Below are positions 12,660 to 34,774 of a stretch of DNA of 64,000 nucleotides, piece by piece. A program made the translations under genes and the position numbers. The stretch is from Isoetes taiwanensis (Eukaryota; Streptophyta; Lycopodiopsida; Isoetales; Isoetaceae). The notes under the pieces were generated by a model. That model had not been told where the DNA came from and did no database searches. It saw only the letters and a program-made list of their open reading frames with translations. The stretch spans positions 36,130,826-36,194,825 of the forward strand of contig JAJEKV010000001.1 in the NCBI GenBank assembly GCA_021234155.1, given 5' to 3'. Position 1 is the first letter of the stretch. Each line of letters opens with the position of its first letter.

Positions 12660-13367
12660 CTTATGATACAGCATCGGATGAAGCCGAATTCTCTTATTCC
12701 ACGAAGAATCGTCTACAAGAAAGGAGATTTCCCTGGCAACATCTGGAAGGAGCTTTCTCTACTCAGACAAGAGGCAGCAATAAAAGAGGAGAAGTGGCTT
12801 TAGACATAGATAATTCTAACTGAGGAGATAAGAAAACTGGGGGAGGAAAACCATACTCTGAAAGATGATCTCTTAATAATGAAGACAGAAATGGAAGATT
12901 TCAAGGAGGAACTAGGGCAACTGAAGACAAAACCTGTAGAAGACAATGAACTAGAAGCTCTAAAGGCAGAATATGAATCTTATATGGAAGAGCAAGATAG
13001 GAGGCAGCGATCATTAAATATGAGAATTCTAGGCTTACCAGAAGTTGCAAACGAGAATACAAAAGTCTTAACTGAAAATTCATTTGCAGAACACTTGAAG
13101 ATTGAGAATGTTAGTATATCAAATGCCTTCAGAATTGGCAAGGACACAGGAACCAGACATGTTGTGGTTCGCTTTCATAATAGAAATGATAGGTTTGAAG
13201 TCTTGAAGAATAGAAGCAAACTAAAAGACCAACACATCTGGATCAATGAAGATCTAACGAAAGAGCAGCTAATCACCAAAAAACAAGAACTTGCAAAATA
13301 CAAGGAGGCCAAGCTGAACAATCACAAAGTATACTGGAAACAGGAAAAAGTCATAATAGAAGAATAG
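12660..13367 (+). pseudogene. LINE-A ORF1 (L1 ORF1p / Transposase_22-like)
   Basis: The N-terminal part is a coiled coil ('LTEEIRKLGEENHTLKDDLL', then 'EMEDFKEELGQL'). An RRM-like core follows ('RRQRSLNMRILGLPE', 'NAFRIGKDTGTRHVVVRFHN') and a C-terminal domain ('RSKLKDQHIWINEDLTKEQL'). This order matches the trimeric RNA-binding ORF1p of animal-type L1 elements. The last ~160 codons (12879-13367) are open; upstream the same frame has two stops close together near 12800. In cells this protein would coat the element RNA. Plant L1 elements more often have a zinc-knuckle ORF1, so this type is notable. Confidence 0.75.
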
Positions 13368-13387
13368 GAAGTGTTGGAGACCTCGAT

Positions 13388-14290
13388 TGCAATATGGAAT
13401 ATTAACAAGCTGACCGTAGATAAAGTTCTAGAAATGGAGGATCTGCTAGTACACAGATATGATCTGTTTTATTGAAACAAAGGAACATGAGCTATTTGAA
13501 CTGCCCGAGACTGAGAATTTTAAAAAAAATCTATTCTGTAAAAAATAAAAGGTTTAGAGATGGTGATTGCGGTAATGGTGGAATTGCTTGCTATGTGAAA
13601 ACAGAATTTAAAAGTCTTGTGTTGGGCATCAAAAAGGATATAAATAACTACTTTATCTGGCTAAGAATGCAGGGAAGTAAAGCGGAACTATACATGGCGA
13701 TCTGCTATTTTGCACCAGGGCACAAACAAGCATATGCTAATAGTACAGATGCTACCAACGATGATCCTTTCTTCTGTTTAGAGCAAGACATCATGCTGTA
13801 TCAGGAAAAAGGAGAAGTTATTGTGACGGGTGACTTTAATAGTAGGACTGCCAGCAATCAAGCATCCGTATATACTGGAGAAAAGGATATGCTATGGTTG
13901 GAATATCTAGACATGAATGAACTGGATAAATGTGGCTGGAGAAGACATTCCTGCGATACTAATATGATAAAGGCCGGAAGACATTTGCTGAACTTGTGTA
14001 GCAGCGCTAACATGTTTATCTGTAATGGTATCTCAAAATTCCCATCATTTGGCAGGTGTACATGTAGAGGATGGAGCGTGGTAGACTATTTGATATGTGG
14101 CGATTCTGCAATAGAACATATCAGGAAGTTTGTAGTGATGGAGGAGCGAATGGAATCAGACCATGCACCTATGCTCATAAATATACCAATTCCAGATCAG
14201 AAGGAATTAGATAAGAAGAAAATACCAATTGGCATGTGGCTTATAGCAAAAAGGAAGCTATATACAAAAAGCGGACTGCAGACAAACTAG
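13388..14290 (+). pseudogene. LINE-A ORF2: endonuclease domain
   Basis: Endonuclease/exonuclease/phosphatase-fold motifs appear in order. 'FIETKEHE' (Glu-containing motif, near 13470, in a shifted frame), 'VTGDFNSRT' (13829-13846), 'SVVDYLICG', and 'SDHAPM' (about 14155) correspond to the AP-endonuclease active site that nicks target DNA to prime reverse transcription. There is a frameshift at about 13470-13560 and the frame ends near 14290, where the next piece continues in another frame. Confidence 0.8.
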
Positions 14291-15845
14291 TCAACAATAT
14301 ATGGCCAGAGGATGTTAATGAGTTAAACCAACTTATCTCCAAGATTATATTGGAGTCTGCCACACAATGCTTTGTACCACAGAGATGTATAAAGGGCCTT
14401 AAATATAACTCTTGGTATGATACCGAATGCAAAGAAATGAAGAAAAAAGTACATTCGGCATGCCAATCACAAAGGGTTGATCTATAAAAGGAATATATAA
14501 AGATTGTCAGAAGAAAAAAGTGCAAGTATTTTAAAGTGCGGCAAGAAACGCTATTCAAGGAGTATCTAAAAGAGCCCAAGAGATTCTGGAGCAGATTGAA
14601 AAATGCCAAACCTGCACTAATTCCGCTTACTGCTCAAGAGCTGTGGCACCATGTTGATCAATTATATCACATCAAAGAGATGGTAGAAGAAAGAAAGGGT
14701 TTATCTGATTTGTTTTTCTCCGAAGAAGGAAATAATGTCAGAGATGAAATTCAGGCTGGATTTAGATGCAAAAAATCAACAATAGATCATCTGGTTACTT
14801 TGAAAACCATAATGGACTCAGTAAAGGGGAAGAAAAAACCAGTATACATTCTATTTGTTGATTTTAAAAAAGCAATTGACAAAGTGCCTCGGACTAAGCT
14901 CTGGAAAAGGATGGAGCACCTACAGATACTAGAAAACTTGAGAGAAGTGGTACTTATTCTCTACGAAAAAGTACTAGTGCAGCTACTGCAGAAGCATCAG
15001 AGAGAATCTTAAGCAATATTGGCATAAAACAGAGTTGTCCACTGTCGCCAACTTTATTTGGGTTGTTCATAGATAGTTTGAAAGAATGGATCAGAGTACA
15101 TGGGGAAGAAGGTAAGAACATCCAGGGGTATGTGATCAGGTTATTGATGTATGCAGATAATGCGGTGATCTTTGCCCGTGCTCAGGCGCATATGCAGAAA
15201 TATCTTGACGCATTATCCATGTTCTGTGCTCAAACAGATATGCAGGTAAACCTAGATAAAACAAAAGTCATGGTCGTAGAGGCCCTTATTTCCAGCTTCA
15301 ATATAATGGAGAATATGTACAGAAGTGTGACTCTTACAAATACTTAGGGCTGATCATTCACAGAAATCATAGATGGAATACATGTATATCACAAAGGATT
15401 GAAAGATGTCTGAAAGCTTTATATGCGCTGCAAAGTCTTTGTAGAAGGGTCCATTTATGGTCGTGGCCTTTGAAGGTAAAATTTTATTAATCTATAGTTC
15501 TGTACGGCAGTGAGGTATGGGGGCCTATATTGCCCAAAGGACTATGGGAAGATATTGAATAGGTATTCAAGAAGTTTGTGCGACTGGAATTGGGAGTAAA
15601 AGCACAAGTTCCATATCCTATGATGCTAGCAGAAAATGGTCTTATGCCGATGGAGGGAGAAGCCATGGTGAGGTGCATTAGATACTTGAAGAAGATACAG
15701 CAACAAGACATTACTACTGGCTTCCACACCATGCAATGCAGACCAGCATTGAGCAAGGGTGGTTTCAAGATGCTAAGGAATGGCTGGATAGATGGAATAT
15801 ATCTTTTGAAGATGCAATGATTTATGACGGGGATATCACAAAACT
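14236..15845 (+). pseudogene. LINE-A ORF2: reverse transcriptase region, internally deleted
   Basis: After a linker ('RFWSRLKNAKP') the palm motifs appear: 'EIQAGFRCKKSTIDHLVTLK' (14745), 'ILFVDFKKAID' (14850), 'GIKQSCPLSPTLFGLFIDSL' (~15022) and 'LLMYADNAVIF' (15141-15173). The catalytic YADD is YADN. The RT finger region expected before QAGFR is missing, so a deletion lies around 14735. Frames change at about 14490, 15012, 15350 and 15560. The element is interrupted at 15845 by the nested L1. Confidence 0.8.
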
Positions 15846-18440
15846 GCAAGAAGAACTGCATGCTAGTTAAGCTGGATTTCAGACGGGCCTATGATACAAT
15901 TAATTGGAAGTTCCTCTATATGGCAATGGCACAGCTTGGCTTCTCTGATGGAGTGATAGGGAAAGTGCATAGTCTTAATGATGCTGGTTGCTCTGCAGTC
16001 ATGGTCAATGGATCCCCTACCAAGTTCTTTGAATGCAAAAAAGGGGTAAGACAGGGATGCCCTCTGGCTCCCTATCTGTTCTTAATTGTTGCAGAAATGG
16101 TAACCAGGGCCACACTCAATATGGTAGCTACAAAAGAGATCCAGGGCCTCCAACTTCCACAAGGTATGGGAGACTTTGTCATCATGCAATATGTCGATGA
16201 CACATTTGCATTCTGCGAGAATGATGGATCAAGTCTTCCTAATTTCCTAAGTATGCTACAACTCTTTGGGAGTGCTACGGTGTCCTCTGAATAAGAATAG
16301 AGCACCATTGTCATGCAAACCGATCGGGGATGAGTCGCATGGCATCAAAGTTTCTTGGACACAAATCTGCCACAAAACTTCTAGGGTTGCCTCACGGTCA
16401 TCAATATGAATTTACGGACTATGGGACTCAATTGTAAACAGGATGAAGAGGAAGATACAGATGTACTCTAAATCTCTCTCTTTAGCAGGGCGTGTGGGTA
16501 TAATTAACAGTGTGATTGCCAGCACACACATCTACTTTTCCTCGGTAATCATAGCTGATAAGGCATCATATAGGAAACTGGAAACTGCTATGAGGGAATA
16601 CATCTGGCAGGGAGCAAGAATGGTCTCCTGGGATAATTTGACCTTGCCAAAGAAGGAAGGAGGATTAGGATGTAAAGACCTATTTTCCCAAGCTCAGGCT
16701 CTGGCTGCTAAAATAGTCTGGAGATCCCTGACTTCTGAAAGTCCATCACCTGCTCTCAAACTTGTGAAATACTGGTTAGGGACCACAACCATAGTAGGTG
16801 CCCCTTCTCTTCCTCATCAACTCCCGGACTCAGCATTTTACCAGATTAAACCCTCCCCTGGCACATCCAAAATTCTGAGACGTATTCTCTCAGCCTGGAA
16901 TTTGGTCTCTCCATGCTTCCGAGCAAGGGAGTTGGACTCGGTCAATGACAGTCATGGTTTCTTCTGGCATCAGGATTTGGTAAATGAGGATGAAGGTTGT
17001 TTGGCCCTCAAGCACCCCCTCAAATACAAGGAGTGGTGCCTGGCTGGGCTACACACCATAGGCTCCCTCAGGAATAATGAGACTTGGAGAGAATGGGGGG
17101 AGCTAACTACTCGGTTAATACGATCTGAGAGACCAACAGAAAAATCTATTCCTTAGTCACCAGGCACCCCAGGGGTAATGATAACTGTCTTCATAATTGG
17201 ATCTCTGATGGTAAGGGATATAAGGTCTCTGTGATTTATAGTTTGTTACTTGACAAGAGTCAACTCAAAGTTTGCAGAACATGGAATTGTCAACATAATA
17301 CAGCTGTACAGATTATCAGACAGGGGTGGAAGCTTCAGTGTGCAAATAAGGTCATCTTCTTTAGATGGCTGCTACTTAATCAAAGCCTCAAAACCAATAG
17401 CTATAGGGCCCAATTTGACACTAACATATCTGGCATGTGCCCCTTAGGCTGTGGTCAGGTTGAAACGAGCCCCCACGTCTTCACCTGCCCTTGGTTAGCT
17501 CCATTCTGGCAATGGATTAGACCCCTGTTACAACAAGTTCCCACTGATGATGCCTCCTTGCTGCAGTTTCTCAACAATACATCATCCTTCAAGGGCACTC
17601 TCAAAACTCTAGCCTGTTGGGCTATTTGGAAACATAGGAACACAGTGGCCATTGAAGGACTGGCCCCGAGCCTAACTGAACTTAAAGCCTCTTTTCAGAT
17701 CCTCCTAACTGAGGCAGCCATGGCACATAGGGCAAACAAGGGTCTAAAATATGATCATAAAATGGGATTCCCCAGGAACCTTCAATGGTTTCTTTCAATT
17801 TTTGCAATTCTATTTAATGATTTGGATATTGTTCTTGACAGAATTTCTGCTGAAACGACACTATCTTGAGGGGGACATGAGCGCTTAGTGGATCCGCCTT
17901 ACAGCTCCACTTTCCAACCAAGAAGTCATTGATGCTCTGTTTTGGGTCAAGGCCTGAAGTTATCATTTGTATAACCTTTGAGAGGCTGGCGTGACGAAGA
18001 CATCTGGAGGTTTAATCGGGGAAATCAAACCATACTTTCGGGCCAAAAAGAAAATCCATGAAGAGGCCCGTGACTCTGGATTATGCACCTCTTTGGATTC
18101 CCGGTTATGGTCCAAATGAGCTAGATGACATGATGTTCATCTACACAGATGAGGCCTTTGCAATTATATCACTGGAGGGAGTGCCGGATATACTGTAAAC
18201 AGCCGATGGAACAGTAGTCTCTGTTTTGAGTAGATATGCTTCTGAACTTTAAGTTTAAAGTGCTTTCTATTTTGAACTCTGTTTAATGCCCTCCATGAAG
18301 GGTCTATGATAGCGAATAGCTATCCACTTTTTCCCAGGAGTAGTACTTCCTACTCAGGGTTTTTTGTATGATCATGTAATTTTCCTATACAGTAATACAA
18401 TCTCTGCCGTTTCCTCAAAAAAAAAAAAAAAAATATATAT
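15846..18440 (+). mobile_element. Nested plant L1 LINE, 5'-truncated, with poly(A) and 13-bp target duplication
   Basis: The insertion is flanked by ATATCACAAAACT at 15833-15845 and 18441-18453. It starts abruptly inside the RT ('MLVKLDFRRAYDTINW'). It continues with 'KKGVRQGCPLAPYLF' and an intact 'QYVDD' (16190-16201), then a C-terminal zf-RVT-type region ('KVIFFRWLLLNQSLKTNSYR' … 'CPLGCG' … 'SPHVFTCPW'), and stops at 17867. A ~550-bp 3' UTR ends in 17 A residues (18417-18433) plus a TA run. Frameshifts at about 16290-16440 and 17156-17230 inactivate it. No RNase H domain is seen. Confidence 0.9.
15866..17869 (+). pseudogene. L1 ORF2 C-terminal part (RT palm, thumb, zf-RVT)
   Basis: Three open segments (15866-16294, 16443-17156 and 17231-17869) together encode the second half of a plant L1 ORF2 in changing frames. 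Motifs are 'FRRAYD' (RT block with first catalytic Asp), 'GVRQGCPLAP', 'YVDD', 'SLAGRVGIINSVIASTHIY' and 'ARMVSWDNLTLPKKEGGLG' (thumb/linker). The zinc-binding C...C...H...C module follows at about 17440-17500. Before truncation this enzyme would have reverse transcribed its own mRNA at nicked DNA. Confidence 0.8.
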
Positions 18441-18453
18441 ATATCACAAAACT

Positions 18454-18586
18454 AGTCAAACAAAAGATGACTAAAAAGCTATGGCTAAATCCACCTACCA
18501 AGATGAACACCTATCGGCAGATTATGAATCCAAAGCTTACACAGGTTGTACATTTACAAATGCTTATCTCGATTAGCAAAAGGCAT
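18454..18586 (+). pseudogene. LINE-A ORF2 segment between the two insertions
   Basis: The frame runs 'LVKQKMTKKLWLNPPTK' and 'NPKLTQVVHLQMLISISKR' up to the GCAT target site of the DNA transposon. It aligns with the LINE-B segment around 'LAHYQQQVNPRLT' (minus strand ~7370), which identifies it as the ORF2 region just before the C-terminal zinc finger. Confidence 0.75.
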
Positions 18587-18614
18587 GGGCATAAGCACGT
18601 TAGGGTATACCCAT
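18587..18614 (+). repeat. Left terminal inverted repeat of the 11-kb transposon
   Basis: It starts GGGCATAAGCAC and includes the small palindrome GGGTATACCC near its inner end. It is identical to the right TIR at 27 of 28 positions. Confidence 0.9.
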
Positions 18615-18759
18615 TTCGAGACATTCTAAAGTACCTACCTAAAGTACTTTTAAAAATGGACTCTAGTCTCCCAAAACAAATTCAAACTTTAGTCGAGAAT
18701 TTAATGCGGGTGACTGAATTCAATGGCCGCTCATTCAATACGTCTAGTTGGTAGCTACC

Positions 18760-18952
18760 TCGATCAAACTTCCCCCGCCCTTCACCTCAACGAGATCTCC
18801 TCTGGCATTCACTATCGATCAACACCATTGCAGAACTCTCTATTTTGTCTCCGGCAAAGGCATGATTTTCAAATCGACACACTTTATATGAGCATTTCCA
18901 ACTCTCTGTCGGTCTTGTCTCCGCCACTAACGTTTCTGTCTCCGTTAAAGGT
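18760..18952 (+). promoter_or_regulatory. Possible 5' non-coding exon of the RING/FCP1-like gene
   Basis: A C/T-rich transcribed-looking stretch ends in AAAG followed by GTATGA (donor-like, 18952/18953). The next strong acceptor that opens the coding frame is TTGCAG at 19760. The stretch could be the leader exon. Direct evidence is only the donor-like motif, so it is tentative. Confidence 0.3.
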
Positions 18953-19761
18953 ATGATGTTTAAATAACATACTTCCATAGCTTCTCATTTGTTGGTTCTC
19001 TAACCTTGATTGACTGGTGCAACAGAACTCTGCCGATTTTAGTTCGATTGTTTGTCCAAAGAAGACTAGGAGCTGTCAGAAGGACTTTAGGATCGTTTTC
19101 TTCTGGTAATTCCTCCTTAAAAATCGTGTCTCATTGAAGAGCATCGATGGATGTCATTCTAAACTTATTCTTAGATCACATAAAATCATATTGTAGTCCA
19201 TTTCTATACAGATTTATAGTTTACCATTCTTATCCTTTTGACGTAAAATCCTAAAACCTCATCCTTCTTTGCCCAAGTTCTACCTAGTTCAAGCAGATAA
19301 TAAGATTAATTGCTTGAAGAGACTATGTTAAGTCACACGGTAAGATGAGATGAAATTATGGAAAGTTACATTACATGGATTTTGTCCATTTCTCATCTTC
19401 AAAGCAATTGGTTAGGAAGCTTTCTCTATAAGTTTAGTTAGATTTTAAGGCTGAAGGGATCCAAGTGAGGATTCAGCAAACCTCATCGTTTATGATTGCG
19501 ATGAACGGATTACTATAATACTATCTCAAATACAAATTATTGTATGGGCAGAATGAGAACTGCACAAGCTAGCTTTTAACAATTGTATAGAGGCTTCATT
19601 CAGTAGTATAGTCCTTTATGAAATATATTCAAATGCCAATACAACTTAGATCCCAGTAATTGGTATTTTGCAGATCTTAATAAAAGCACAAAAAGGCTTG
19701 TTATATGAGAATTTTGATTCTGACAATTTGCTTAATATTGTTTCAAGATCCACGTTGCAGC

Positions 19762-22700
19762 ATGAAGAAAGTTCATGAAGTTACGATGTCTCCTCGACAA
19801 CCCAAAAAAGCAAAAGTTTCATGTGTTACTCCAAAGAAAGCAAAATCTTGTGGTTTAGAGAAACTTTTAGTGACTTGTAAGGAAGAAGGCCGATTATGTA
19901 GTTCACAGGAAGCTGATCTTATTTCTATCAATGAAGTGAAAAACTGTTTGCAGCCAAAAATGATGATTAACACATGGGGCGCTGCTCCAAAAGATGGCAA
20001 ACATGGGTTTAATATCTCCCGCCTTAAAAGGTCTTCAAAATTTGAATTCTTGCAGATTTATAAGAAGGTCTTCCATAAAGTAGAAGTGACCAAAGTCTTG
20101 ATGTACATGGCGAGGTGTTATGCAGCATGGCAACATGGTATTAATGTTGATTGGAATAGTGTTGAAGAATTTGCACAAGATTGGGCTAGGAAGAGACATG
20201 GCGAAGGACCAAAACAAGAAGAAGATGAGCTACCAAAGAAGAAAGAAGATGCTTTGAGTGTGCCATCACATTATGCACTTGATTTCATAGAAGTGCTTGA
20301 AAAGCAATTGGGTATTTTGAAAACTAGTGCTGGAAATGAAGAGACTACTATTGAATATGAATATTGAATATGCAAAGGCAAATTCCAAGTATATTGAGGA
20401 GCAAGTTGTACATTTAAGATCTAAAATTGAAAAGGTAAAAGCTGAACTTGATATGAAAAAGAAAGAGCTTGAATTGCAGTGCAAGCTTGTGGAAAAACGG
20501 AACCTTGGGAACTCTAGATGGTGCATTGCGAAAGCTTCAATGCAATGAAGAGGATGCTGCAAAGAGGGAATTGGAGAATGGAGTGGAAAAGATGAGTTTG
20601 CAAGAAGTTGGAATGACTTATATGCTAAATGCTAGCTTAGAAAGTATTGCTGCCAATCAAGAGAATATAACAGAATTGGAAGATGAAGCAAGATTGAAGG
20701 AAGAAGCTTATATGAAAGAGAAGGCCATATTTGATGAAACAGCAAGTCGAACGAAAAGGATTCAATCTTTTCTTCATGCAATAAAAGAGGAAGGTTGCAC
20801 ATTTGTGATGCCAAATCTGATGCCTCCAATTCCTAAAGAGCATTTCGCTATAGTGAAGGTTGAAGTAGAAAGATGTGCATTTTGCGGATTTGGTTACAAG
20901 GATCTTCAATATGCAGCTTTGATATCTCCATGCATGCATTCATTTCACATTGCATGTGCAGTTCACGCATTCAAATTTTCGATCTATTGTTGCCTTTGCA
21001 ATCAAGACGTTAGCAAAGATTGGCTTCGTAGCATTGGCGTGATGCCACTTACTACAGGTACGCTTATTTATGTCTCATTAATTATAATTAGGATCATTGA
21101 TCCATGTCCTTTTGCAGCAATGTTTCTTGCCTTACTTATTATACCATAAGTGCTTAACTAGGTACTCAAAACTAGTATATACATATATAATTCTATCTGT
21201 TTGTGCACTTGGATGATGGGAGCAAAGGGTGTCGTTGAATGTTGCACACTTGGCTTAACATTGAGGCATGTATATGCATATTGTATACATGCATAAATTG
21301 ATTGATATGATCAGCTAGCATAGTGTTGAGTATTTCTAGTACCTTAAAGTTTGGTTGGTAGTACCCTGAATCCCCAATTAGCTTCTTTATTCCTCAAGTA
21401 TCTCAACTAGTACAAAAATGATTGCATAAGTACTTAATGTATCTTGTCTAGTATTCAAGTAGCTAAGTTTATTGAGATGCATATTTGAGTAATTTCTTAA
21501 TACTTCAAATACACAGTTTTGTAGAATAAGTCTGTAAGTACTCTATGTTATCTTCTAGTAAAAATGAATACCTATTTTAGCAGAACTAACTGTTTGTATA
21601 TTTCTGCTAGAATCAGTACATGTCTTACTAGGTTGATGCGCAGATGAGTACATATCATAGCATAACTACTCCTTGTATATTTCTGGTACAATGAGTACAT
21701 GTCTTCATGCACAAATACTCAATTTACTAACACCTAATATGAGTACTAGTTAATTTTTTGAGGATTGCTTTGCATCTTGAATTTTGTCTTGAATTTTGTG
21801 ACAGGGGATGATGTTGATGTTAAGGAAAGCTTGGCAATGGAAGTAGCAACTCCATCAAAGGAAAGGATTGCATGGGTTGTTGATTCGGAGGATGATTGGA
21901 TGAACAAGCTAGAAAAGCAAGAGAAAGCATTGAGCAGCAAAGGCTCTTCGAAAAGCTCCAAGACTGCTTTGAGACCTTTAGATAATGTGGAAGATAAAGC
22001 TGGTAGTGTACAAGAGGAACTTATTAAATCCTATGGAAGTCCTATTTTACATTCTTTGAACATGTTGGAACACAAGAACCTTCAAGATGAATGCATAGAA
22101 CCTGATAGTCTGGATATGCTAGAGCATAAACATGGGACCATACATGAAAGCATGGATTATGCCCAAACTTCTCCACTCAAAGAGCGAGATGAATATATAG
22201 AATTGTCCGAAGATTGCCAGGATACTCCAAAAGATTTGAATAAAATGGTTCAACCGTTATCTAGAAGCCCCAAGGCACTTGAGAAAGATATTCTGGGTGA
22301 AAAAAAACCTGCAGCAACTACAAAAGTAAAAAGAAGACTTGGTGTCAAAGGTGAATACATTCTCTCCCTTCTCTCTATACTTCCCATTCTTCTACCAGTA
22401 TTTTATGATGGTGTTATTTTTAGAGTTTGATAAAGTGCAAGACGTTGAAATGGGTAAATCCAAACCAAGAATAGCCAGTTCCAAAGGACAAGATACAGGT
22501 GAGGCCAATAAGCATTTGACATCTATTGCCTATCGCTAAAAAGGTATGTTCCTTGGTAGGTGTTATTGGTTGCAGTAAATTGAACTTAGATGGGAGGTGC
22601 AAAGCCAAAGAAAACCAAACTTCACCAGAAAAGAAGAACCTTATGTAAGTCGGAATGCCATTGATGTTCTATTATTGCATAAATTATAAGTAAACTTTGG

Positions 22701-23591
22701 TTGAAGTCATATGTATTGGAATGAGGTTTAGAACTGGCCGGGAGTAATAGATACGTCTCTATTTTCAGTTTCTATTCAAGTCTCATTTATGAACTGCAGG
22801 ACAATCCCCTCATTAAGATCACAAAGTAGGAAGCAAGGACTTGGATGCAGCCCTACCAAACAACCTACATCAGTAGCAAGGTACTTCATTTTTTTGTGTT
22901 CTAGTTTTCTGTGGCTATAATGACAGTCATGTGTAACATGTGTAACAGGATGCAAAAGAAGCTCCTAATAATGGATGTCAATAGAATCTTCGTAAAGAGG
23001 TTTGAACTAAATGAAAAACTACCAAGGCGACATCCACGCTCAGCTAGTTATCAGATTGGCAAATTCAATATCGTGGTAAGGCCATGCCACGTACAATTTG
23101 TGAAGGAATGTATGAAGCACTTTGCGGTGGCAATTTGGTCAACTATGTCCAAAGGAAACCTAACTACGATGCTTAATGAACTCTTTCCTCAAGATGTGCA
23201 AAGTAGATTTGAATTTATATGGGATCAAGAGCATTGCGAGGCTACTGATCTTGATCATCCATACATGCCAGGGAGAAAAATATTTCTCAAAGACATGCAA
23301 ACAGTATGGTCAACAACATCCTACAATTCATCTAATAGTCTTTTGATGGACGATGCTGAGTACAAGTGTTTGAGGAATCCAAAGGGATCGTACATCATAC
23401 CACGTTCATTTAGTCCACAGTCAGAAGCTGGAACTATCATGCACTTGACAGATGAATTGCTTCCCTACCTTCTAAAGGTTGCTAATGCCATAAATGTCTG
23501 TACACATGTGATGCGGACACCAATGACAAAGAGTTCTATGAAGGAGACAGCAGCTGTAAAGAAACTACTTCAAAATAGTGCACTACTTTGA
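19762..23591 (+). CDS. Coiled coil - RING-H2 - FCP1/NIF-like phosphatase gene carried by the transposon (frameshifted)
   Basis: Predicted exons are 19761-21057, 21805-22350, 22424-22498, 22590-22644, 22800-22880 and 22949-23591. All have GT/AG borders and compatible phases, giving about 900 residues. In order: an unrecognised N-terminal domain, a long coiled coil (20330-20780), a RING-H2 finger (CAFC…CMHSFHIAC…CCLC, 20874-21000), a charged linker, and a FCP1/NIF-type HAD domain with 'LLIMDVNRIF' (22962), 'AIWSTMSKGNL', 'KIFLKDMQTVW' and 'SNSLLMDDAEYK' (23335). RING-H2 proteins are usually ubiquitin ligases, and FCP1-like domains dephosphorylate RNA polymerase II tail or similar substrates. 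The expected DxD is DVN. Frameshifts at about 20345-20365 and 20500 interrupt the coiled coil. A further frame (23578-23757) may be a frameshifted C-terminal extension. It may be captured host sequence or a true element gene. Confidence 0.75.
20874..21000 (+). other. RING-H2 zinc-finger coding segment
   Basis: Spacing is C-x2-C-x14-C-x1-H-x2-H-x2-C-x10-C-x2-C, which fits the RING-H2 consensus exactly. The preceding coiled coil could mediate dimerisation of an E3 ligase. Confidence 0.75.
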
Positions 23592-24968
23592 CATGGTTGT
23601 ACATGTTAATTTAAACGGACCAGAGGGTATAGAAAAACAAAATGCATTACTGTGGTGCCATAATGCAAAACGCTTTTTTGAGGAAGAGTTTTTAAGTCAT
23701 AAGTTTTGGAATAGAAGCTGCATGATCATGTATGGGATATTACATATGGTATTGAAATAGGAATTCAAGTTTTTGCAAATATACGTTTGATTCATGTACA
23801 GCGATAACAGAAAATATTATGTTTTTGTGGAAGCTAAGATAAGGTTGAGTTGGTACTTAAGAAATTCAGAGAAATGTTTTAAATGGATAAGGGTCACATA
23901 CATATGCTCTGAACAATCAAACATGTGCTTTTACAGCGATACAAGCAGGTAATAGGTGCACATGGGTCATACTTGCATGTAGGCTTGTCAAAATTCAGTT
24001 ACGTGCTGGTGTACAAGCTATTGTGGTGCCCTTAAATAAGATAATATCTATTCTAATTCATTGCTTGAAAGGCCTTATTGTTATTATTGTATGCTAGTGT
24101 ACAACAGATATCAGAAATAGATAGATTATGGCATATTCCAGGTGATGTGCTTCCAAAATTATAGTGTATGCATTGAAACCAGCTATGTAACTTAGTTGTA
24201 AATGCAACTGTGGTGAGCAGTTTCGTGCTAGATAACACCCCAAATCCAATGCAGCGGATGTTGGTATCTTAATATTGGATAATTCAAGATTTAAAGCGAC
24301 GGAAAGGTTTAAAGCTTTGCTACTGTCACTAATCACACTCGTAAAGGCAAGCATATTGCACATTCAACAGTTCTGAGAGCCCAATCTCAACACTTTGGGG
24401 AATTGAATCCCAACGTGTAAAAATGGTGGAGAAATCATACCTGTTTCTGGAATTGAACAACAGCCCAATACCTCAATTCATCAAACAAAGCCCAATACCT
24501 CAATTCATCAAACAAAATGAAATGTATGTGTGTGAAAACTTACTGCAAATTCTGATTTCAAAATCTGATGTCCTGCTAAATATGCCTTCTTGAACCTGCA
24601 TATTCGAATTTGAACAAGTTTAAATCCAGCTTGCCTGAGCTATTGCTATAGGTTCTTGCCTGGGCAAACATTTAATGACAGATTACATTAATGACATAGC
24701 CACTCAATGCTCTATTGAGCAAAAGTAAGAATCTTGAGTGACATTATGGCAAATATAGACATAATGTAAAGTTAAAGTGATATTATAGCAGCAGAATAGT
24801 ACTTTAGTTACAAAATGGCGTCATGCATGACTATGATTGCATAACCTCAAAATGGAGTCATGTTTGATTACATACCCTCAAAATGGTACACACATAGTAT
24901 CATAAATTAAGGCCAGTTGAGTGAGCAGAAAATTAAAACAGTTCAATAGTACAAAATACAAGGATGGG
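23592..24968. other. Convergent intergenic region of the transposon
   Basis: Between the ends of the two convergent genes there is AT-rich sequence with no further gene that I recognise. A 26-bp block (AGCCCAATACCTCAATTCAT-CAAACA) is tandemly duplicated at about 24467-24518. Confidence 0.5.
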
Positions 24969-27900
24969 TTAGACGAGCTTTTCCAAAATTTTGTCCTCGT
25001 CGGCTGCTCCAAGTAGGTAAACAGTCTTGTTGCCTTTAACCTTGTGACCTTGGGGCATGTCAACAATTATATGGACCACCTGCTCAGCATAAACAATTGC
25101 ATCAGAGGCCATCTCCACCAAAGATATAACTTGTTGTCCCTGAAGGTGCTTTTCGATTTCCCTTATATCTCGTGAAATATTTCCCTTCGAGCACCTCTTC
25201 ACCCTTAAAAAATGAATTGCCATGTGTATCTATCATATCCTTCTCAAGCACGTGCTTGGGCATGGAGCATAGCACAAGCCAAAATATGTCATCATCTTCA
25301 TTATCAACAGGGGCTTCAACTGCAAATATGCCACCGACGTCTATAATATCAACAAGAGGTGTGTTTTCGTCAACTTCATTACACTCAATATGCTCACGAA
25401 GCTTGTAACTATCTCTTCCATGTTTAGGCTCCAGTATATGTGCAGACCAGCCACCTATTTGTTCCAAATTTTCACATTTAGAAATGTCACCATACATGCA
25501 GAAAGTACAAAAGCAGGCAAATTGTCTGGTTACAATCTTAGTTGGATCTTCCTTATTGATCCCATGGATACTATGAATTTTCCTTGTGCCATCCACCCTT
25601 TTACACTCCCAAGCCTCTGAACGATTGACATCAGCAACTTTCACTTCCCAAAAGTATCTTGCCACATCTCTTGAATGACTCGGAAATGTTGCTGCTGCAC
25701 TTGTAGAAAAGTTATCTGTAAGCCACCTGGTACAATCATGAGCATTGGGCTTAATCTCACTGTTCACTTTCAATTCCTCTCTTGCCATCTTATCCTTCAC
25801 CTTGGCTCCTTGGCCGTCATGTTCTCCCTTACCATGACCTGACCCAAAGAAGCTCCATTCCATTGGAATTCCTGTCATATTGAAATAGCGAGCAACAAAA
25901 TAAATTGGACGACGTGCTTTGAAATGTGCTGCAGCTCCGTCAGACCATACCCAATGTTCATTCATCTCAAATCCTTGTTCTTGAACCCATTTATAGTGTA
26001 ACATTAAACAATGTTGCACGAACGCAGTGTCATGGTCTTTGTCATCTGAAATATAAAAATGGGTCTCCTTAATTGGTTCACTAGACGCTGTTTCACGTCT
26101 ATATGTGATGTGGACAAATATCGTAACTTGTTCATTATTGAAATAACCACTTTGAATCTCATTTTGTGGCTTGAACGTGTAGTTCTCAGCGAAGTCAACT
26201 ATTGAAACAATGACTCCAGGCGAGAAATTCTTCACACACTCCCTAAATTGCTTGTCTTCCCAACGTGCAGTGAAGTTGTGACTGAAAAGTCTTGAACATG
26301 TCGGTAGAAGAAACTTACTAACTCTCCTGGTGGCGTTGCTTTCTTGACAAGTTTCTTCCTAGACTTCGGATGGCCATCTTCATCGTTTCCAATTTTCACA
26401 TCCTCGTAAGTATCCCATTCTAGAAGTGGACTGGTTTTATCTAATTCCTTGGGACAAAATTTGATTTTCTTAGCTCCACAATTAGAACAGGTTCCAAGTA
26501 AGCAACTTTGTTTGTGCCATTCAGTCTCTCCCTCTTTTGGGCACACAGCCATCTCCCAAATCTCGTGTAGCCTTGAAAATGTTTTATGGGCTGCATTGCA
26601 ACTTTGCATTCCCTCTTTCCAATTACAAATATCACAATAACATTTACAATCTTTATGAATCATGGAATTTGTCCTCATTGCATTCAAGGACATTCTTAAT
26701 AGGTCCAATTGAACATGGCGCACGCAACAACAAGTATTCCGCTCCTTCAATTTCTTCACATAAAAGGGCTTCCATTTCTCAAACAATCTTTGCCCAACCT
26801 CAAGATCAGGATATGCTTCCTTGAATTTCAAGTAAGCTTCAGCCTGTAACAAAATTCAAAAGCCAACACAAGTAGCATTTCAATTGCCATATGCTAAGAA
26901 ACAAAGGTACTCAATAAATCTAGAAATGCCCTGCTTATTCAATTGCAGTATTCTGACTGTTTCTGCACCAGCAACTAAAAAGACATGCAGGTTCAATTTA
27001 GTAAATAGTACAAAGGAATAGCTAATGATGTTCACTACGACTAAAGTAAGATAGATACATAAATCGTTTACGATCTCAATCTATTGGTTTACATTCTATC
27101 TCTGATTCATACCAGAATTTTCTTCTCGCTGATTTTACCTTGTATACCACCCCATGCATTATTGCCAATAAACAACAGGCCACCTCCTCTACTTTGGTCT
27201 GTTATAGTAATTTAAGAAGTATTTTGTGTATTTAGCCATTTAAAATAACCCAGCAAGTACCTCATGTAATTTGACCCTTTTAAAGTATAAGAAGTATCTT
27301 GTGTACTTAACCTTTTAAAGTAATCCAGCAAGTACCTCGTGTAGCTTGAGCCTTTTAAGTAATCCAGGAGGTACCTTATGTACTTTGAGACTTTCAAAGT
27401 ATCCAAGAAGTACATCATGTATTTTCAGCCTTTTAATGTAATTTAGTAAGTGCCTCGTGTACTTTGACCCTTCCAAAGTAAATCATGGCCCCAAAGTACT
27501 CTCAAGCTTCCAAACAGTACTTATGAACCTTTGACGTACATGCTAGATAATATTCTGAAAAATGAGGTGTTCATCTAAAAGATGCATACTAGGCAGTACT
27601 GCAGTAATTTCTATCTTGACCACTATAAGTGCCTCTATTCGCAGCAACTAAAGGCTTCATGCAAACGAGCCTAGAACTCAAAGGATTTTATCTGCCGCTA
27701 ACATAAACTAGGAGTGTCTTATGAGCTAAAATAACAATGCTAGGCATCAGTGCTAAGCTAAACTACAAATAGCACTTTGGAACTAAATTGAAGATGTATT
27801 AGTCACTGCTACCAATGGTTGGGCTAACAAGCATCACATGCATGAGCTCACAAGCAAACATAAAATCAAGGGTGAGAAAGGTTTTGCTTACTTGTGAGAC

Positions 27901-29380
27901 TTCAAGATAATGTGTTGGATGCATGATGACATTGTCTTTTCCTCTTCCAAGCTTTTTCCTACGCATATCCTTTCTATTTGGTGAAACTCTAGTGTTCTCC
28001 TTCCAAAATCGTTCAATGCAATCTACGACTTCTTTTGACAACATATTACTGCGTGGCAGCCTTGATCCATTAGCCCAAAGTCCCATCTGCATCTCAATTT
28101 TCTTTTTTCTTTCAAATGCCGGCTTCATATTTCTTTTATTAATGCCTAGTAATTTTGCCGTAGATCTTGCCTTTGTCCTCCTATTTGATGGCACATCTGA
28201 CCCTGATACCACCATGGCTAAAACAACATTTTTTGCTGCAAGTTGGTCGTGACTATGGCTACCCTTTACTGCTTGAAGGGAGCTTCTCAAATTGCTCATC
28301 ACTTGTAAGAGACTTTCACCTCCAAGGATAACCTCAGGGTTATATGCTTTCGTCATTAGTGGATGACGAACAAATTTACTCAGAATCTCTTGCTGGATCT
28401 CCTTATCCAAATGACCTGCTTGTTGTTGAAAATTCTGCACTAAGCTTTGTACTAGGCGGTTTACATACCTTTGCTTACTTGGGCCTTCTTTACTTGGGCC
28501 TTTCATATCACCACTTCACAAGATGAGTAATAAGATTGTCCTTCACCGGTTAAATCAACCTTGCCATTTCTTATTCCAAACCTAGTGCTAATAAAAGAAT
28601 TCGTAACATGAAAAATAGTCATGATTAAGATAGAAAAAGCAGATAGTCTGATAAAAGTAAAAGCCAATCCAATCCTTGATTTGCTTATGCTTGGAAGACA
28701 TGTTATGGTTTCACAAGTTTACTAATTATATACATGAAATTACAAATAAGCCAGAAACTACCTTGTTCTTATTCCCTCAGTTTTGCCTTTGTTCCTGCTT
28801 TTTGGAGAGCCAGAAAGAAGGGCTCAACCTTGTCTTGGCAATTGCAAAAATCGTTCACCTTGTTCTTCGTTTGTAAACTTTAGAAAGAGCACTACTCTTG
28901 GATACCAGCCCAGTCCCTAAAATATCAGCAAGACAAAATAATGAAAATATACTAATACGGACACAGTATGCAATCTAAAATGATGATGTTGTTTTAGAAA
29001 GCATGTGGATGATTGTGCCAAAGAGGAAACTAAATTACAAAGGAAATGTTTGCCATGTACCATTATAGTGGCAGATGCATGTACTACAGAAGTCTTGCAA
29101 CACCTTAAATTAACCCTCAAAATCCACCATTTGACTGCAAGTATATAAAATATTTCTAGACTGCCCTACTGAAGCTTTTTGCTACTAAGAATAAAGATCG
29201 TCAAAGTTTGAACTAGCTTATTCAGAGGCCAGCTTACCTCGATATATCAAAACCATCTGTGATTGAGTAGTGACAATGAAGATCCTGTTTGTCTAATTTT
29301 GCCCTCAGAAGCTTCGTCACACTGCTCCCCTCTTCTGATAGATTATTCCTTTCTATGCTAAGGTTCATAGGACGATTCAT
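24969..29380 (-). pseudogene. DDD/E transposase gene, Sola-like, three exons, two frameshifts
   Basis: Exon 1 is 29380-29238 (ATG to a GTAAGC donor). Exon 2 is about 28516-27892, with the N-terminal/DNA-binding half ('FWKENTRVSPNRKDMRRKKL' … 'HPTHYLEVSQ'). Exon 3 is 26843-24969 and joins in phase ('…EVSQ-AEAYLKF…'). Exon 3 holds a Cys-rich block ('ERNTCCCVRH', 'CKCYCDICNW', 'CSNC') and then a catalytic core. Candidate acidic residues are Asp in 'IVDFAENY' (26194-26196), Asp in 'WSDGAAAHFK' (25939-25941) and Asp in 'GKGEHDGQGAK' (25816-25818). A 1-nt frameshift near 26280 separates 'HVQDFS' from 'HNFTARWED', and a second lies near 25150-25200. The transposase would bind the TIRs and cut and paste the element. 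A small extra exon between 28516 and 29238 cannot be excluded. Confidence 0.8.
27210..27480. repeat. Intronic minisatellite (~55-65 bp units)
   Basis: About five degenerate units carry AGTACCTCRTGTA-like and CCTTTTAAAGTAATCCAG-like words. They lie between exons 2 and 3 of the transposase gene. The AGTAC word is also frequent in the first intron of the plus-strand gene (21150-21740). Confidence 0.7.
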
Positions 29381-29636
29381 AATCCATATTCAAAACTAGT
29401 GCATAGTGACAGTTAACATCATCCATCGCCTATTTTCTCGCCAAACTGTGGAGATCGATTGAGCTCCTCAATCCTGGTCTATGAATCTCTATCTGCGTTC
29501 GAATTCGAGTTTACCCGCCAATCCCGACTGGAACAATTAATTCTTTGACTAGTCTACAGTAAATTCAAACCCACGAAAAAGTACCCCCCCTCGAATAGAT
29601 TTTTGGGTAGTTTTATAGTAGCTATTCGATAAAATT

Positions 29637-29664
29637 ATGGGTACACCCTAACGTGCTTATGCCC
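29637..29664 (-). repeat. Right terminal inverted repeat of the 11-kb transposon
   Basis: Reverse complement of the left TIR with a single A/G difference inside the GGGTRTACCC core. It is followed directly by the GCAT duplication and resumed LINE-A coding sequence. Confidence 0.9.
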
Positions 29665-29668
29665 GCAT

Positions 29669-29961
29669 ACTATATGTCGGATGCGTCTCAGCTCGCATAG
29701 ACTGGGTATTGAAGTAGGAAGGTGGAAGAAAATCCCTCGAGAGCTGCACACATGTAAGGTATATGGTACTGGAGATGTTGAAGACGAAGATCATGTACTG
29801 ATACACTGTCCTGCATATGCGATGATCAGAGCCAGATATGGTATCGAAGCAAAAACTTTAACACAACTATTTGCTTTAAATGCCAATGCAATTGGATCTT
29901 TTATCATAGAAGTAGTGCAATATATAGAGACATATAAAGATCTTTTTCAGATTCTTAGATG
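29669..29961 (+). pseudogene. LINE-A ORF2 C-terminus with CCHC-type finger
   Basis: The open frame 'HTICRMRLSSHRLGIEVGRW' continues to a zinc-binding region ('CKVYGTGDVEDEDHVLIHCP') and 'AYAMIRARYGI', then stops at 29959. Similar C-terminal tails (…ECP.Y..IR.RY) end many LINE ORF2 proteins. It resumes exactly after the GCAT duplication of the DNA transposon. One of the expected finger cysteines (CxxC) appears changed to C-x-V/Y. Confidence 0.85.
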
Positions 29962-30047
29962 AACATGAGAGTGAAGCTGATTGGAGAGAGGAGTCTGTGG
30001 AAGCCCGTGATATGGACTTCCCAGAATACATGTTGTAACTATTAAGT

Positions 30048-31807
<1,760 letters not shown>

Positions 31808-32026: not shown

Positions 32027-33199
32027 TATGCATGACATTTCAAGTGAATAAATTTGTGGTGTTGCTAAAAATACCATCTATCTATCTATAAAAGTATATG
32101 AGTTACTTATTTTGTGTTATTTTGCTTTGTGATCTTGTTCTTTTCACATTGGGGACAATCGACTATGTTTAAAACTGCAAATCCTAATTAATATTTCTTT
32201 GAAATCATAGTAGAGCTAATTATAAGTTGAATTCATGTCATTTTCTAAAGATTATTCCACCAACTCCATGATGGCACAAATCTGTTCCACTGTCACCATA
32301 CTGCTATAAAGAAGGCATTTAACTAATAAAGCAATCAAAAGTATAAAGGAAATTCTTGGTATATTAGCTTGGTAATATGATTTATTTGTAAATGCTACTT
32401 ACTTGGTTTATACTTGTTAATATTGGCTTTCTTCCATGATATTTCGATGGTTTATGTCTAGCTTTCCATTTGGTTTTCTCAATGTAGAGGGGGAGGCAGA
32501 GGAAGAGGAGGAACTTTAACATAAACTGAAGATCTAGTTAAATTAAAATGAATAACAACCATTGACATTAAATAAGTACCCTTGACCCCTATTATTTTGG
32601 TGCATAGAAGGCGTCCCGATGGCTGGCTCGGACCATGAAATGGAAATTTAGAGCGATTTGAGGCCGTAACCCTGAAAGTACACAAGCAGTATATGTGCCG
32701 GTACATATTATTATTTTCGCAATGGTTGGACTAGTTCCCTTCGTATCTATATATGCTTGTTAATATGATCGTCCCATGATTTAGTAGTGTATTTGATTGG
32801 ACGTACTAATATGTACATCTAGAGTACGCACACGCTCATATTTTTTGTGAGACTTTCCAATGGTTACAACCAGGAACTTGTTATTTTTCAATATATGTTG
32901 CTATCGCAACAAAGGATTGCCCTTGCAAGCAAGTTAACACAAGTTCATTTTTTATAAAGACTTGGGCACCAAAATTCGAGAGATGGCATTCATGTTAAGT
33001 TACCATGTGCTAAAAATTTCACTGAGCAAATCTATATCCTTATGAAGCAATCTATGCAAAAGATAACAGTACTGCTCATATAATTTAGGAGGACGTGGTA
33101 CTGTTGATTATATCTTGAAAATCGAGGAAAAAAGTGTGTACTGAATTAACAACCAAGAATGAACGAAATGAGATAGGGTAAATGATTTGGAAGAGGAGT

Positions 33200-33563
33200 A
33201 AAGAGAAAAGAGAAAAGAGAAAAGAGAAAAGAGAAAAGAGAAAAGAGAAAAGAGAAAAAGAAAGGAGAAAGGAGAAAGAAGAAAGAAGAAAGAAGAAAGA
33301 AGAAAGAAGAAAGAAGAAAGAAGAAAGAAGAAAGAAGAAAGAAGAAAGAAGAAAGAAGAAAGAAGAAAGAAGAAAGAAGAAAGAAAGGAGAAAGGAGAAA
33401 GGAGAAAGGAGAAAGAATAGAATAGAATAGAATAGAATAGAATAGAATAGAATAGAATAGAATAGAAAGAAGAAAGAAGAAAGAAGAAAGAAGAAAGAAG
33501 AAAGAAGAAAGAAGAAAGAAGAAAGAAGAAAGAAAGGAGAAAGGAGAAAGGAGAAAGGAAAAA
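33200..33563. repeat. Compound polypurine microsatellite with (AATAG)10 core
   Basis: On the plus strand 33200-33417 is all purine, made of 7-nt units (GAGAAAA, then GAAGAAA, then GGAGAAA-like). Ten AATAG units follow (T residues every 5 nt from 33418 to 33463), then another 100 nt of all-purine GAAGAAA/GGAGAAA units to 33563. Open frames here are low-complexity artefacts. Confidence 0.95.
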
Positions 33564-34774
33564 CCAAAAGAGAAACATAGTATTTTCTGCTCTACACAAA
33601 GAACTACAGATGTACACGTTATGTATAGCAAATCGGTTATAAATCTGAACATACTGATATCTGCTCAGAATCCAGGCTTTTAAAGTGACTATAAGAAACA
33701 ATATCATAAGGAATGCCCTACATTATTGCAATCTAAAAGTTGATTGAGTTGATAAATTAAGAGAGAAAATTGGAAAATAAGGCAACAGCTTATTACCAAA
33801 ATAGAGAAAATTTGAATTGTGTTTGAGACATTTGTGATAGGAAATTGAAAGTGACAATTACATCTGCAAGAAATTGAATTCTAGATTGCATTTGAATGGG
33901 AACATTTTTGTTCATCGTTAACATTATTAAGTTATGTATGTTTGATGTATTAATTGGCATAGAAAGCTAGAAGAAACAAAGTCAATCTTTCACAGACCCT
34001 TCAATATACTTTCATGTTCCAAACAAGAGGTTCTGGACCTTCAAACTCTAGAACATCCCCGAGCTCAAGTCCGAAGGCAGTCTTATTTTAGCCCACTTAT
34101 CACTCAGACAATTGGGGCTCCTCTTAGGCTTCACATCAAAACTAATTCCTCATGAACCATTAATGGTAAATGTCTCGCCCTTCTTTGGCATTCCTAAACA
34201 TCACATTGCTCCAGCCTTTGGATATGATATAAAAAAATAAAATAACTTAAATAATGCAAACGAAAAGAAGTAATATTTGAGTCCAGTTTAACAGTCCTAG
34301 ATTATAATTTTGCCTCAGAAGCTTGCAACAATCTCAACCATCCGAATCTCATATGAGCAAGAAATCCAAATTAAAGATGCTAAAGCATATTCTAAAACCT
34401 CAAAGTCCATCCCTAGGTTTGCTCTGCAGGAAACCCAAAAAAGAAAACCAATAAAGTGGGAACAGTAGCTTTCATTTTTAAATCATTTTATCGTGCTAAA
34501 TTTGAGCTAGATGCTATGGTGTTCTGTATTTAACCGAATATACAAGTGCCTTGACAGGCCAAGATGCAAATTAAACGACCATCAAGCAAATTCTTTCATA
34601 AGTAGATGGAAATGCTCTAATATGTTCAAACATTATCTATTCCCTTGGCAACAACGAACTCATCTCCATATCTAAATACCATTGCTGCACCACACATCTT
34701 ATCCCATATCCTATCCCCACTGAATGCATTTTTGTTGGTTCTAAAGATCTACAACTGAGCTAATTCCATACACA
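33564..34774. other. Spacer without recognised gene
   Basis: AT-rich sequence with no domain-supported frame. It lies inside the candidate Helitron. Confidence 0.4.

Follow-up and report, generated by a model that had tools for sequence, protein, structure and literature searches.

An 11,078-bp DNA transposon is located at positions 18587-29664 of a 64,000-nucleotide stretch of the Isoetes taiwanensis genome (contig JAJEKV010000001.1; the whole stretch is hereafter called the window). It is very probably a cut-and-paste transposon from a large and diverse group in this host, and it combines a transposase gene with a second gene whose product would serve as a helper protein with a RING-like finger and a NIF/FCP1-type phosphatase-like domain (the RING-NIF gene). 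The borders of the element are defined by the following features.

18583-18586, no strand: target duplication GCAT, left copy, 4 bp, read directly
18587-18614, plus strand: left terminal inverted repeat, 28 bp, with the same border in two other copies
29637-29664, minus strand: right terminal inverted repeat, 28 bp, which pairs with the left end
29665-29668, no strand: target duplication GCAT, right copy, 4 bp, read directly
29669-29959, plus strand: flank carrying the remainder of an interrupted long interspersed nuclear element (LINE) frame, matched by tblastn across the joint

The original prediction had described a complete element with exact borders, based on 28-bp inverted ends flanked by GCAT and on a LINE reading frame that is restored when the flanks are joined. 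These observations hold. The inverted ends, which pair at 27 of 28 positions, and the flanking GCAT sequences are read directly at 18583-29668. When the flanks are fused at a single GCAT, the LINE frame remains open through the joint (...LISISKRH^TICRMRLSSHRLGIEVGRW...), and its alignment to a second LINE at 7496-7278 on the minus strand crosses this joint with 36% identity over 74 columns (tblastn E 2e-11, a value common to the two pieces of the match). The two LINE copies of the window lie on opposite strands (7496-7162 and 12810-18586), and the element is inserted near the coding end of one of them.

With the leftmost 118 bases of the element as a DNA query, a search of the genome (1,658,258,908 bases in 1,110 contigs) listed three places, comprising the window and contigs C499 and C1051. 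Both of the latter contain complete copies, one of 11,226 bp flanked on each side by AAAT (C499) and one of 19,038 bp with two inserts, flanked on each side by TACA (C1051). Identity to the window element is 95.6% for C499 and 98.7% for C1051, counted over columns with letters in both and, for C1051, without its two inserts. Because similarity in both copies stops at the same terminal bases of the element, next to different 4-bp duplications, the borders are not a product of chance. Continuation of other copies beyond the inverted ends, which the original prediction had named as speaking against it, is seen in neither C499 nor C1051, and the duplication is 4 bp long in all four insertions that were read (three copies and a nested relative described below). 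Thus, the evidence supports a DNA transposon of the cut-and-paste type that is complete and has exact borders, and its insertion in the window is probably fairly recent.

The RING-NIF gene spans the plus strand between about 19684 and 23591 and is convergent with the transposase gene. Its parts include a coiled coil, a RING-like finger, and the NIF/FCP1-type domain. Some of the features below are compared with the nested relative or with L043, which is one of four further transposase matches examined in this study.

19684-20364, plus strand: N-terminal open stretch, approximate limits, no Pfam match
20457-21146, plus strand: open stretch with a RING-H2-like finger (PF13639), with a related stretch in the nested relative
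20874-20999, plus strand: the RING-H2-like finger itself, computed position
21762-22430, plus strand: open stretch between the finger and the NIF domain, probably an exon of this gene, no convincing Pfam match
22905-23591, plus strand: NIF/FCP1-type phosphatase-like domain (from about 22956; PF03031), with a 67.6% identical stretch in L043

The NIF domain of the window matches PF03031 with an E value of 7.8e-12 and 45.6 bits, which is above the curated cut-off of 21.8, as are the nested relative (78.2 bits) and the loci L043 and L045. The best PDB sequence match for the domain of the nested relative is UBLCP1 (3shq, E 2.9e-5). This similarity places the domain near the FCP1-UBLCP1 phosphatases; unlike these proteins, the window domain has Asn at the second Asp, is encoded by a transposon, and lies behind a RING-like finger. 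Enzymes of the NIF/FCP1 class use a D-x-D catalytic motif, and the replacement of the second Asp by Asn is expected to weaken catalysis. The motif reads D-x-N in the window, the nested relative, and L043, and more generally in six of ten NIF loci, namely all of those where our script pattern detected the motif. Its first Asp is retained, as is an acidic pair farther along the domain. Given the Asn replacement, the domain is more likely to be a binding module or a weak enzyme than a normal phosphatase, and binding of host proteins is likelier than ordinary phosphatase action. The spacing of a RING-H2 finger fits by eye in the window, and one His is an Asn in the nested relative.

The transposase is encoded on the minus strand by the following open stretches.

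27799-28515, minus strand: N-terminal open stretch, 67% identical to a stretch in L043, with a ratio of nonsynonymous to synonymous substitution rates (dN/dS) of 0.22
26232-26855, minus strand: cysteine/histidine-rich open frame before the catalytic part
25102-26358, minus strand: catalytic open stretch, identified from the alignment of relatives, with the fold modelled on the relative L018
26194-26196 (D), 25939-25941 (D), 25822-25824 (E), and 25816-25818 (D), minus strand: candidate catalytic residues, from conservation in the alignment

In several relatives, the cysteine/histidine-rich stretch and the catalytic part form a single open frame. Acidic residues D, D, and E/D are nearly invariant among the aligned relatives, and both the E and the D at the conserved third site are candidates for the third catalytic residue. 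The model of L018 (mean predicted local distance difference test score, pLDDT, 65.6) follows the RNase H order, and integrases rank at the top in structure comparison. An earlier model built from three sequences was discarded (pLDDT 33.6). The prediction for the enzyme is therefore an RNase H/integrase fold of the DDD/E type, and the DDD/E transposase named in the original prediction is upheld to that extent. Neither Pfam nor NCBIfam yielded a convincing match for this transposase group, so annotations may overlook it; Pfam was run on eight window open reading frames (ORFs) and on 20 transposase rows. PDB sequence searches gave weak matches only (E 0.25 and 0.52), and no confirmed relative was found in the viral contigs and prokaryote genomes searched. 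Degenerate tandem-like repeats with spacings of 39-40 and 75 bp occur between the transposase stretches at 27213-27480 and are probably intronic.

The association of the two genes extends far beyond the window element. The NIF search of the genome with the window query, using the best 150 of 4,249 candidates, gave 146 merged NIF places, and the combined transposase list contains 249 places, including the best 150 of 151 matches from a second search. Among the matches listed, 38 of the 146 NIF places are no more than 5 kb from a transposase, and 37 of these pairs are convergent (0.22 expected by chance). Likewise, of the 99 merged places listed with the window transposase as the query, 28 have NIF no more than 20 kb away, with 26 in convergent orientation (0.35 expected). 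This fraction rises to 19 of 22 listed places for the window-like subfamily, defined by at least 60% identity and including the window and C1051. The transposases that adjoin the second gene span 40-80% identity, and the orientation of the second gene is nearly always the same. Within 10-kb stretches around the four further transposase matches (L043, L044, L045, and L046), NIF is present in L043 (67.6%) and L045 (31%), and L044 contains a convergent ORF with coiled-coil (PF08647 E 6.9e-6, below cut-off) and RING-like matches. Element ends were looked for in these four stretches and were not found.

One of the two inserts in the C1051 copy is itself a 7,357-bp element (L012:297-7653), bounded by inverted ends of 30 bp that pair perfectly (GGGTGTAAATATGGTTCTGCTACCC...) and flanked by a TTTG duplication. 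Its transposase is 44% identical to that of the window over 181 columns, and it carries a related second gene that is again convergent to the transposase. In this gene, the RING-like stretch (27% over 74 columns, E 7e-6) is followed downstream by the NIF domain (31% over 183 columns, E 8e-21). The ends of the window family and of the nested relative fit the pattern GGG[CT][AG]TAA...TACCC, which matched these ends only across the 322,765 bases that make up the window and the loci, where overlapping loci are counted twice and the pattern was written after the ends of both families had been seen. Two other features of the nested relative are a perfect 89-bp inverted repeat pair at L012:6771-6966 and a weak aspartyl-protease-like match at L012:3985-5115, in frame with the NIF domain (PF13975 E 0.014, below cut-off).

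Substitution patterns are consistent with purifying selection on both genes. Between the window and L043, dN/dS is 0.14 for the transposase core (synonymous divergence, dS, 0.88), 0.22 for its N-terminal exon (dS 0.87), and 0.15 for the cysteine-rich exon (dS 2.2, near saturation). Other transposase pairs gave values of 0.08 (dS 2.1), 0.11, and 0.10. For NIF, the one comparison between the window and L043 gave 0.25 (dS 0.74). By these ratios, the transposase and NIF are similarly diverged and both appear to be under constraint, with the NIF estimate coming from a single pair.

We read the second gene, on the strength of these comparisons, as a conserved working part of the transposon rather than accidental cargo, and its conservation and position suggest a helper role. 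An incidental passenger, as the word cargo in the original prediction would suggest, does not agree with a convergent partner gene beside many relatives. A number of observations weigh against our reading. Confidence in the fold model is middling, and Foldseek searches of PDB and BFVD with this model returned nothing at E <= 0.001. The window finger scores below the cut-off of PF13639 (E 0.0016, 19.1 bits, cut-off 27.3), as does the L044 finger with PF12678 (E 2.1e-4, 21.9 bits, cut-off 31). The N-terminal parts of the window and nested RING-NIF genes gave no match when compared, NIF was not found in the 10-kb stretch of L044, and no second gene was found in that of L046. Between the window and C1051, dN/dS for NIF is 0.52, from very few changes. 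In addition, among the matches listed, 71 of the 99 transposase places lack NIF at a distance of up to 20 kb and 108 of the 146 NIF places lack a transposase at up to 5 kb, counts that neither prove nor disprove the association.

Some of these observations would also fit other explanations. One of them, in line with the Sola assignment and the word cargo of the original prediction, is an ordinary Sola-type element in which part of a host gene was picked up and is carried passively. Gene capture has a precedent in Sola, namely the Fanzor1 genes of Sola2 (PMC3627910), and the stretches of L046 and L044 that lack the second gene or NIF are in keeping with this proposal. However, passive cargo should vary between lineages and decay, whereas this gene is found again, similarly oriented, next to transposases that share 40-80% identity, with constraint on its NIF part, which makes the proposal unlikely. 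Another alternative, that the second gene has been domesticated or serves the host and is simply carried along by the element, is very improbable. Purifying selection alone is silent on whom a gene serves, but the gene sits within mobile copies at many places, and the similar dS values of the transposase and NIF fit joint inheritance in one element. The least credible explanation is that the NIF and RING stretches come from a host gene unconnected with the element, or from an independent repeat, and lie near transposases by chance. The 108 listed NIF places without a nearby listed transposase would be expected in such a case, but the gene is enclosed by exact borders in three copies and also occurs within the nested relative, and nearly all close pairs among the matches listed are convergent.

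For the transposon with a dedicated helper gene, which we prefer, the anatomy of the element implies cut-and-paste transposition by an RNase H transposase. This enzyme would recognize ends of the GGG...TACCC type, cut the element out, and join it to target DNA at positions staggered by 4 bp. The second protein would be a dedicated helper. Its RING-like and phosphatase-like parts might engage host proteins, either ubiquitin or the carboxy-terminal domain (CTD) of RNA polymerase II and chromatin, and thereby sustain expression of the element; we give this role serious weight, if somewhat short of an even chance. Direct aid within the transposition complex is another candidate role, to which we assign about a one-in-three prospect. 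More tentatively, the group might constitute a clade, perhaps a superfamily, that lacks a Pfam model and is a fixed two-gene system, with an RNase H transposase and a RING-NIF protein derived from the CTD-phosphatase and ubiquitin machinery of the host. In such a system, the second protein might act on host transcription or ubiquitin pathways for expression, or assist transposition, and could have helped the group to reach a very high copy number.

Among known transposons, the closest resemblance is to Sola, as judged from the available portions of the sources cited here. Sola1, Sola2, and Sola3 share a 4-bp target duplication, a DDD/E-type enzyme, large size, and short inverted ends (PMC10741241). 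The ends of 28 and 30 bp fall within the range of 11-1124 bp for Sola (PMC10741241), a range so wide that this is a weak test. In plants, Sola is reported from Physcomitrella and Capsicum (PMC9033089), and its transposases have been placed among the RNase H-like enzymes (PMC3985635). The Sola descriptions in the available portions of PMC10741241 and PMC9033089 do not mention a conserved RING-NIF partner gene. Because Sola1-3 are groups defined by reference sequences (a bivalve survey, PMC10294476; the Repbase description, PMC4455052) and membership was judged here by description rather than transposase sequence, the element is plausibly called Sola-like and is not filed as Sola. The Sola2 elements with Fanzor1 likewise combine duplications of 4 bp with a gene additional to the transposase, but their extra regions differ between elements with nearly identical 5ˊ parts (PMC3627910), whereas the window element and its diverged relatives keep the same type of gene. 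No Fanzor-like match was present among the window ORFs scanned with Pfam.

MuDR and CACTA are two-gene plant DNA transposons that encode a second protein in addition to the transposase. By analogy, the RING-NIF protein may have a comparable role, but those systems have other target duplication lengths and other proteins. Academ elements carry a helicase part in their protein, and Academ was rejected since no helicase family was found in the Pfam matches of the eight window ORFs or the 20 transposase rows. Mutator (MULE) was rejected on its target duplication of 7-12 bp (PMC10741241), compared with 4 bp in four insertions here. Ginger, which has an integrase of the Gypsy type (PMC10741241), was also rejected, with no integrase family at E <= 1 in the eight window ORFs or at E <= 0.1 in the 20 rows; bearing on this case, the predicted transposase fold is integrase-like despite the lack of an integrase family match.

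Searches of the open-licence literature aimed at a link between a RING-NIF-type protein and a transposon, judged from the entries listed, showed no report of one. The joining of a RING-like finger to an FCP1-type domain suggests that the transposon might have a direct handle on host transcription or protein turnover. With exact ends, copies up to 98.7% alike, and a nested relative at hand, end recognition, helper dependence, and escape from silencing are testable.

The window copy itself is probably non-autonomous at present, because both of its genes are frame-disrupted relative to other copies, unless these frame changes are assembly errors. Specifically, compared with the two other copies, its transposase frame shifts in the vicinity of 26286 and of 25107, and its RING-NIF frame shifts between about 20366 and 20510. 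C499 and C1051 each carry lesions of their own, and relatives with long open transposase frames are present. The differences of C499 from the window fall at CHG sites in 49% of cases in the transposase half (13% expected) and in 40% in the other half (10% expected; loci L008 and L009), compared with 29% (13% expected) and 11% (10% expected) for C1051. This excess suggests base-calling error at methylated cytosines in the C499 contig, and thus we do not insist on any single frame change as a mutation. The transposase region of C1051 (L010) is broken by a further insert of approximately 0.9 kb with an apparent 11-bp duplication.

Elsewhere in the window, a tRNA-Ala gene with the anticodon tgc is located at 1637-1710. 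Long low-complexity stretches, visible as repetitive open frames, occupy positions 33085-33722 and 30042-30362.
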